Shown here one piece after another: positions 6,799-8,245 of a DNA stretch of 41,773 bases. The stretch is from the IMG/VR virus record IMGVR_UViG_3300010401_000020, positions 1 to 41,773 of that record; one strand, written 5' to 3'. The notes beneath the pieces are model-generated. The model worked only from the letters and a program-made list of their open reading frames with translations. It did no database searches and was not told the origin of the DNA. The position numbers were made by a program, and so were the translations under genes. Source of the DNA: a virus. Positions within the stretch are counted from its first letter, which is position 1; each line of letters starts with the position of its first letter.

Positions 6799-6968
6799 TA
6801 CTGCAGCCTCCCGCAAACCGCCCGCAGCTCCAGCGCGATCTGCAGCGCCCGCATTTCCTCCTGCACCAGCGCTTGGGATTTCTCGCCGGCCAACTTGCGC
6901 AGCTCCACGTCAATGCGGATGCGCGTGAGCTCACCGTGGAGGAACTGGCGGGTGTTGGTGAGGTTCAC
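6798..6968 (-). CDS. Short helical hypothetical protein, 56 aa
   Basis: A GTG at 6966-6968 overlaps the upstream TGA as GTGA and opens a 56-codon frame starting MNLTNTRQFLHGELTRIRI. The whole sequence is amphipathic and charged (VELRKLAGEKSQALVQEEMR), predicting a single long helix or coiled coil. It fills exactly the space between two other genes with 4- and 1-base overlaps, good evidence that it is real. Function unknown. Confidence 0.6.
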   Translation of the reverse strand: MNLTNTRQFLHGELTRIRIDVELRKLAGEKSQALVQEEMRALQIALELRAVCGRLQ

Positions 6969-7153
6969 TTGACCACCCTCAGCGGTGTGACAGCAGAGCC
7001 CGCATATCCCTGAGTCAGCTTCTGCGAGAATGTCAGCGCACCTTCGATCCTGCCGCGCGTGAACACCATCTCGAGGATGGCGCGATACAAAGCCTCGCTA
7101 TGCGGCACGCCGTAGTTCTGGAGGGTCTCTTCGGCCATTTGCTCAGCAGTCAT
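6965..7153 (-). CDS. Hypothetical protein, 62 aa
   Basis: The ATG at 7151-7153 follows AGGAG at 7-base spacing and overlaps the upstream TGA as ATGA. The product (MTAEQMAEETLQNYGVPHSE...) is mostly helical and soluble, with no metal or membrane motif. It is the second gene of the PL operon. No family is recognised. Confidence 0.6.
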   Translation of the reverse strand: MTAEQMAEETLQNYGVPHSEALYRAILEMVFTRGRIEGALTFSQKLTQGYAGSAVTPLRVVK

Positions 7154-7383
7154 GAAAACGCTCCTACCAACAGGTAAACCAACCCCGAGGCCACCACCAA
7201 CGTCAGATACACGCGCCACCAGCGGACCCAGTAACCGTCATCCAATCGAGCCGGCGCACCGCAGCTCAGGCAATGTCCCTGCCATAGACCGGCATGGCAC
7301 CAGCAGCTAGGCCGCGCACCCCGAGGCACACCGATCCTGGCGAGGTTTTCTTGTCCGGTGGACTTGTCAGGGTGCGAGGCCAT
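7150..7383 (-). CDS. First PL-operon gene: Cys-rich protein with C-terminal membrane anchor, 77 aa
   Basis: The product has two Cys pairs (SCWCHAG and CLSCGAP, about residues 26-42) that could bind zinc or form disulfides. A hydrophobic C-terminal helix follows (VYLTLVVASGLVYLLVG, about 59-75). There is no Shine-Dalgarno: the ATG at 7381-7383 lies 8 bases after the PL -10 box, so the mRNA is probably leaderless or nearly so. Its position corresponds to the first gene under PL in lambdoid phages, but it resembles neither N nor CIII. Confidence 0.65.
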   Translation of the reverse strand: MASHPDKSTGQENLARIGVPRGARPSCWCHAGLWQGHCLSCGAPARLDDGYWVRWWRVYLTLVVASGLVYLLVGAFS

Positions 7384-7391
7384 GGGGAGAT

Positions 7392-7419
7392 ATCATATTC
7401 AAGCGTGAATGAAAGTCAA
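7392..7419 (-). promoter_or_regulatory. PL promoter
   Basis: On the minus strand, TTGACT (7414-7419) and TATGAT (7392-7397) are separated by 16 bases. The expected start of transcription is about 7385, one or two bases before the ATG of the first gene. The repressor operator occupies the spacer and the first base of the -10 box. The geometry is the same as in PR. Confidence 0.75.
7397..7410. promoter_or_regulatory. Operator OL, attcaagcgtgaat
   Basis: This 14-mer is an inverted repeat ATTCA-N4-TGAAT that lies between the PL -35 and -10 boxes. The identical 14 bases occur once more in this switch, at 8008-8021 in PR. Sequence identity and placement strongly imply that CI or Cro binds it to block RNA polymerase. 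Confidence 0.8.
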
Positions 7420-7432
7420 GTCATTCGTGAAT
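7407..7432. promoter_or_regulatory. Possible secondary operator upstream of PL
   Basis: Two related elements lie beside OL: gaatga-N8-tcattc (7407-7426), which spans the PL -35 box, and attcgtgaat (7423-7432). Both reuse the ATTC/GAAT half-site but with different spacing from OL. They could be weaker repressor or Cro sites. This is inferred from sequence similarity only. Confidence 0.45.
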
Positions 7433-7485
7433 AATAAGTGGCATGACGGCGGGATGCCGCAGAGCAGCGGGGAACGGAAGTTCAG

Positions 7486-7944
7486 TTAAGTTCGCTTGCG
7501 GTCGATGGAAGTGATGTTTGTGCCCTGCAGTGCTCGCTGCAGCTCAGCTTCGCGTTTTTCGATTTCTTCGAGCTGGATCAGAAGCGCCCGACGATCGCCG
7601 GACTTGAGGCGAGAGATACGTTCGGCGAGGAAAAGGTCCTCTAAAGGCGAGCGGGTCAGGGCGGTCTCAAGTTCGGCACTCATGTGCTCGCCTTCCAATA
7701 ATTCGCGTGGAATACGGAAAGCTGCGGTCAATGCAGCAATCGTTTCCGGGTCCGGTTTATGGCCCTCCGGGCCTCCGGCCCTGTAATGCCTGGAAAGCGT
7801 CGGCTGCGATACAGGGAATCCCCGCTTTGCACAATAATCCGCAACGCGACTCAGCACGAGACGGCCCTCTGCGGTGCGCAAACTGGGCATATGCTGCGTG
7901 ACGCCTTCCAAGACGTCGCGGAACGATAATCGCTTCTTCGACAT
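7486..7944 (-). CDS. CI-like repressor without a cleavage domain, 152 aa
   Basis: The protein faces cro across the operators, as a lambdoid repressor does. An HTH is visible around residues 33-52 (RVADYCAKRGFPVSQPTLSR). The C-terminal 60 residues form a charged coiled coil (LEEIEKREAELQRAL) that could dimerise. There is no LexA/S24 peptidase domain with Ser-Lys catalytic pair, so RecA-stimulated self-cleavage is not expected. I chose the ATG at 7942-7944, preceded by GGGGAC. An in-frame ATG at 7993-7995 lacks a ribosome site. The gene stops with TAA, and a weak GGCAT/ATGCC hairpin follows. Confidence 0.75.
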   Translation of the reverse strand: MSKKRLSFRDVLEGVTQHMPSLRTAEGRLVLSRVADYCAKRGFPVSQPTLSRHYRAGGPEGHKPDPETIAALTAAFRIPRELLEGEHMSAELETALTRSPLEDLFLAERISRLKSGDRRALLIQLEEIEKREAELQRALQGTNITSIDRKRT

Positions 7945-7998
7945 GTGGCAATTGTCCCCAACGGCCACGGCTGCGTCGAAAATCTGTTCATCCATGCA

Positions 7999-8026
7999 TT
8001 GACAAGCATTCAAGCGTGAATAGAAT
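7999..8026 (+). promoter_or_regulatory. PR promoter
   Basis: TTGACA (7999-8004) and TAGAAT (8021-8026) are separated by 16 bases, close to sigma-70 consensus. The expected start of transcription is 8032-8034, which coincides with the cro ATG at 8033, so the transcript is probably leaderless. The operator fills the spacer exactly as in PL. Confidence 0.8.
8008..8021. promoter_or_regulatory. Operator OR, attcaagcgtgaat
   Basis: This site is identical over 14 bases to OL. It lies at the same distance from the -35 box (3 bases) and shares one base with the -10 box, as OL does in PL. Repressor binding here would block PR. It also lies 64 bases upstream of the chosen cI start, so it could affect cI expression. 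Confidence 0.8.
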
Positions 8027-8032
8027 GAGGGC

Positions 8033-8245
8033 ATGGAGAAGCCCGAGGTTCTAGTCCGCCGACTCAAACGCCGACACAAGATGTCGGAGTCCAAAATCGT
8101 CGCAGAGCTCGCCAAGCTGGGAGTGAAGACCTCCCAGCCCACCATCAATCGCCTATCACGCGGGGAAGCACGTCGTTCGAGTTTCGATCTTGCCGTCGGT
8201 TTGGATCAGCTGCACGAGCAGCTGAGCCAAACAGTTTCTGGTTAG
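8033..8245 (+). CDS. Cro-like repressor, 70 aa
   Basis: The small basic protein opens the rightward transcript and has an HTH around residues 18-42 (SESKIVAELAKLGVKTSQPT, then INRLSRGEARR), followed by a short dimerisation-like tail. Size, position and orientation opposite CI match Cro. No separate Shine-Dalgarno can be used if transcription starts at the PR-predicted site. The 225 bases after it, up to 8470, hold only weak short frames and no gene I can support. Confidence 0.8.
   Translation: MEKPEVLVRRLKRRHKMSESKIVAELAKLGVKTSQPTINRLSRGEARRSSFDLAVGLDQLHEQLSQTVSG

Follow-up and report, generated by a model that had tools for sequence, protein, structure and literature searches.

Two operators at each early promoter and start codons close to the -10 boxes in a predicted lambda-like immunity region

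Genes of the immunity region

The region described here lies in a stretch of viral DNA of 41,773 nucleotides, which was analysed at its full length and is called the window; this environmental phage is probably a temperate caudovirus. A minus-strand gene at 7486-7944 encodes P0001, a protein of 152 aa with a helix-turn-helix (HTH) N-terminus followed by C-terminal helices. To its right, on the plus strand at 8033-8245, is located the gene for the 70-aa Cro-like HTH protein P0002, which matches phrog_6831 (transcriptional regulator, E 2e-6). The AlphaFold model of P0002 (pLDDT 90) shows an HTH fold, with weak matches that include 434 Cro, P22 c2 and SinR. The model of P0001 is of low-to-moderate confidence (pLDDT 68), its best PDB match being EspR (E 5e-3), and no Pfam or NCBIfam family matched this protein. 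Neither did a self-cleaving S24 domain, the C-terminus of the 152-aa protein being helical. P0001 and P0002 have in common a recognition-helix motif, SQPT-I/L-xR (hhalign E 7e-6), which would be in line with a shared operator, although it is no proof of one. From its position, fold and motif P0001 is presumed to be the repressor, while belonging to no named family. An in-frame ATG (MDEQIFDAAV...) is present at 7995, 17 codons before the start presumed for the repressor, and falls inside the operator candidate O2R described below.

On the left side, the first ATG after the promoter PL opens P0003, an ORF of 77 aa (7150-7383, minus strand) that overlaps the next gene through an ATGA. The left operon continues with this second gene (62 aa; 6965-7153, minus strand), which is preceded by the Shine-Dalgarno (SD) sequence TAGGAG and has a homologue, identified by ORF comparison, in the related contig L015. 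The coding character of P0003 is weak (GC by codon position 0.60/0.58/0.68), and no convincing homologue of it was found among phages. No Rfam element was found, nor any tRNA in the window.

Two mirrored promoters with shared operators

The rightward promoter PR (TTGACA-N16-TAGAAT) occupies positions 7999-8026 of the plus strand, with its -35 box at 7999-8004 and its -10 box at 8021-8026. The leftward promoter PL (TTGACT-N16-TATGAT) occupies 7392-7419 of the minus strand, with the boxes at 7419-7414 and 7397-7392. An earlier note on this DNA had placed both promoters and described their common N16 geometry, and its coordinates are exact to the base. At PR the 6-nt discriminator GAGGGC leads directly into the cro ATG at 8033 (8027-8035, plus strand); at PL the 8-nt discriminator ATCTCCCC leads into the first ATG, at 7383 (7381-7391, minus strand). 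In a scan of the region with the sigma-70 consensus the two best sites were PR (11/12) and PL (10/12). The pattern TTGAC-N15-18-TANNAT-N5-8-RTG has two matches in the window, PR and PL, against 0.065 expected under a Markov model. No convincing candidate for a PRM promoter was found.

Each spacer houses the same 14-mer, ATTCAAGCGTGAAT. The copy in PR, O1R, spans 8008-8021 (plus strand) and has base 8021 in common with the -10 box, and that in PL, O1L, spans 7397-7410 (minus strand), base 7397 being common with the -10 box. These are the only exact copies in the window. At both promoters the 14-mer begins 3 bases past the -35 box and shares a single base with the -10 box, just as the earlier note had claimed. 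Its form needs a correction: it reads ATTCA-N4-TGAAT around an asymmetric centre, and is thus an imperfect palindrome. With up to 3 mismatches allowed, 10 matches occur in the window where 3.2 were expected, a number reached in none of 100 shuffles.

A second, weaker operator, overlooked earlier, is found at each promoter 22 bp upstream of O1. On the left, O2L (ATTCACGAATGACT in minus-strand reading; 7419-7432) deviates from ATTCA-N4-TGAAT by 1 mismatch and shares base 7419 with the -35 box; on the right, the O2R candidate (GTTCATCCATGCAT; 7986-7999, plus strand) deviates by 2 and has base 7999 in common with the -35 box. Both sides follow one order, O2, -35, 3 bp, O1, -10, and no third operator with up to 2 mismatches was found near either promoter. 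As in a lambda-type region, shared operators (O1 and O2 at each side) overlap both early promoters. On the evidence of the DNA and its relatives, PL and PR would form a mirrored promoter pair under operators of the repressor/Cro type, an assignment that is well supported.

Conservation in relatives

The comparative evidence comes from three sequences representing two independent lineages. The close relative, L015/L004, is a 9.5-kb contig whose repressor is 91% and whose Cro is 97-99% identical to those of the window; the distant one, L005 (L131), is a 42-kb contig with 33% identity in the repressor and 33-39% in Cro. Short exact peptide patterns retrieved no relatives of Cro or the repressor from 50,697 phage records or from GTDB genome contigs. 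Profiles of the two proteins had no match in 48 records that carry the terminase of the window, which indicates that the immunity module is absent from parts of the phage group.

In L015 the PR promoter is identical to that of the window, and PL reads TTGACT-16-TACTAT followed by the discriminator TGGTCCCC and ATG. The counterpart of O2L is ATTCACGCGTGACT. Between the two phages O1L and O2L differ by 5 substitutions, every one of them within the central 4 bp; the 20 arm positions are unchanged, a distribution with a chance of C(8,5)/C(28,5) = 6e-4. From 7942 to 8121 the window and L004 share a run of 180 nt with zero differences, covering the repressor start, O2R, PR and the first 30 cro codons. 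In the surrounding alignment 69 of 781 columns differ, and none of 20,000 random placements gave such a run, which reflects either a recent exchange or a strong constraint at the nucleotide level.

In L005 the cro promoter is TTGCAA-16-TAGAAT-6-ATG and PL is TTGACA-16-TAATAT-7-GTG, with the discriminator AGCTCCC. A longer operator occupies the same place, ATTCATACGGCGGTGAAT at PR (ATTCA-N8-TGAAT) and AATCATGCGGCATTGAAT at PL. Since the L005 promoters keep their geometry with this different operator, the geometry has outlived a change in operator sequence.

A strict leaderless-promoter pattern was matched, among 50 phage records, only by the immunity regions of L015 and L005, the reversed-pattern control giving 0 matches. 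A scan of viral contigs for the PR signature returned 28 loci, and all but L015 and L005 look like coincidences within coding sequence. The matches to ATTCA-N4-TGAAT in a promoter spacer, also sought in viral contigs, belong to unrelated phages. Five of them (L010, L012, L014, L018 and L019) have it inside a 16-bp spacer, but their -10 boxes lie 20-31 nt from the start codon; in L010 and L019 the ORF after the promoter is HTH-like. The operator form is thus more widespread than the leaderless geometry.

Two further elements were observed outside the promoters. A different 14-mer, CTCGCCAGGATCGG, is located about 40 nt past the PL start, at 7331-7344 in the window (minus strand) and at 7563 in L015 (plus strand). 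It is kept in both despite differing flanks and different reading frames, and may possibly act in the left operon as an element at the RNA or DNA level. As to transcription termination, a site resembling an intrinsic terminator separates the repressor gene from PL in L005 (4413-4398, minus strand); no such site turned up in the window.

Start codons and the predicted ends of the early transcripts

The distance from the -10 box to the start codon is 6 nt at PR in the window, L015 and L005, and 8, 8 and 7 nt, respectively, at PL. Sigma-70 promoters usually have their start zone 7-9 bases downstream of the -10 box and prefer purines there. PR is predicted to initiate at the A of the cro ATG, which comes 7th after the -10 box and forms part of a C/A step; in all three phages this A has the same position. 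Messages that begin directly with the start codon are rare, but a precedent exists in the telomere phage PY54, whose cro promoter (CATAAT-AAATGT-ATG) has the same 6-nt gap and where RACE puts the start of the only cro mRNA at the AUG (PMC4488713). Given the geometry in three phages, the pattern matches confined to immunity regions and the PY54 precedent, a leaderless start of the cro mRNA at PR is well supported as a prediction.

In the start zone of PL, the window and L015 have their first purine at the A of the ATG (9th base), and L005 has it at the leading G of the GTG (8th base); in the three phages a run of C precedes the start codon. The start of P0003 offers no SD pairing (+0.4 kcal/mol). 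A leaderless PL is plausible on these grounds, and less certain than a leaderless PR, because the ORF that it opens lacks conservation and all three phages have SD-led starts downstream of PL. Specifically, the PL ATG of L015 opens a different frame, which after 30 codons reaches an ATG with an SD in front of it; in L005, 27 nt separate the GTG from another ATG of this kind. The earlier note had proposed both promoters to be leaderless; of this, the part concerning PR is strengthened, whereas that concerning PL stays plausible only.

These observations give real weight, somewhat short of an even chance, to an arrangement in which PR is leaderless but the PL mRNA carries a leader with an AUG or GTG at its 5' end, the first real gene being the SD-led one at 7153. 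Messages with a 5'-terminal AUG are a known class; E. coli has documented examples that also carry an SD-led gene, and most of those tested support some translation (PMC4965119). Against such a leader, the first ATG and the CCCC discriminator are conserved in L015 while the sequence beyond diverges, and P0003 stays open over 77 codons before it meets the next gene in an ATGA overlap. For the PL message, a leaderless form, a leadered form with a 5'-terminal AUG, or both may apply.

Ordinary leaders on both mRNAs, either through starts farther upstream than the boxes identified above or through the use of GAGG as the SD of cro, are improbable. A consensus scan would miss unusual promoters, but it detected no further sigma-70-like site in the right orientation less than 100 bp from either start. 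In favour of an SD, GAGG does precede the cro ATG (-6.1 kcal/mol); it lies inside the predicted discriminator, upstream of the predicted +1. It was rejected as the cro SD because 2 nt from the ATG is too close for normal use and because L005 has CGGGGG in place of GAGGGC. Finally, the probability that chance, or a mere duplication of no regulatory consequence, accounts for the 14-mers and promoter boxes is negligible even with the small number of known relatives, considering the two pattern matches against the expectation quoted above, the conserved operator arms around a free centre and the recurrence of the architecture in L005 with another operator.

Discussion

The region resembles that of lambda (J02459) in that the repressor gene lies between outward-firing PL and PR with cro first on the right, and in that at both promoters O1 sits in the spacer and reaches the -10 box while O2 lies at the -35 box. 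It differs from lambda in several respects. There, three operators of 17 bp serve each promoter, PL and PR are about 2.4 kb apart, and the -10 box of PR is more than 20 nt from a cro ATG provided with an SD; here, two operators of 14 bp were found per promoter, the distance is about 600 bp and the gap is 6 nt. Lambda-type regions have a repressor with the self-cleaving S24 domain, whereas the one presumed here is small, of no known family and has no S24 match.

Leaderless regulator messages are already known from lambda cI and from PaaR2 (PMC8630535). The Cro of PY54 binds only one site, OR3, which lies apart from its own promoter, unlike the operators predicted here inside both promoters, and the part of the PY54 report considered describes no PL (PMC4488713). 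The PaaR2/YdaS region of CP-933P likewise has a leaderless regulator message in a divergent, cI/cro-like setting, but that message is the repressor on the PRM side and does not come from a lytic promoter (PMC8630535). The divergent promoters PL1 and PR2 of Cluster O mycobacteriophages (Corndog) are predicted to be leaderless; they are not a known immunity switch, there being no stable lysogens and no integrase, and the host is mycobacterial (PMC4351075). A leaderless pair of lytic promoters, called unusual in the earlier note, is therefore less so in its parts, as a leaderless cro and divergent leaderless promoters are both on record, but the considered portions of the PY54 and Cluster O sources contain no leaderless lambda-type pair of PL and PR. 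A switch whose PL and PR mirror each other, are filled by operators and each have a -10 box next to the start codon was not found in the open-licence papers searched, which does not prove its absence.

The region is probably an immunity switch of lambda-like layout with two operators per promoter, a leaderless PR and a PL start at or near the AUG. With the 152-aa HTH repressor encoded between them, PR would fire towards cro, and PL towards genes for an Erf-like recombinase and an integrase. We infer from the layout, with O1 filling the spacer up to the -10 box and O2 in contact with the -35 box, that a bound dimer of repressor or Cro would cover DNA needed by the sigma-70 RNA polymerase and so block it, with feedback by Cro as in lambda. 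Once derepressed, PR would give a cro mRNA that begins with the A of the AUG and is translated without a leader. Initiation at PL would occur at its AUG or not more than 2 nt from it, and this AUG might serve the left operon as its main start or be merely a 5'-terminal upstream AUG.

A more far-reaching proposal, rather unlikely on present grounds, is that both early transcripts are truly leaderless and that the geometry was selected at PL and PR alike. Entry into the lytic cycle would then need initiation of the leaderless (70S-type) kind and could be sensitive to the state of the ribosomes in stressed hosts. If true, this would add both early promoters of a single switch to lambda cI and the one cro of PY54 as cases of leaderless translation, and a compact system would result, with operator, promoter and start codon packed into about 60 bp. 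Such a switch would be useful for testing whether leaderless messages aid the lytic start of prophages when normal initiation is impaired. Moreover, ATTCA-N4-TGAAT would be a small operator code that can be read in metagenomic phages.
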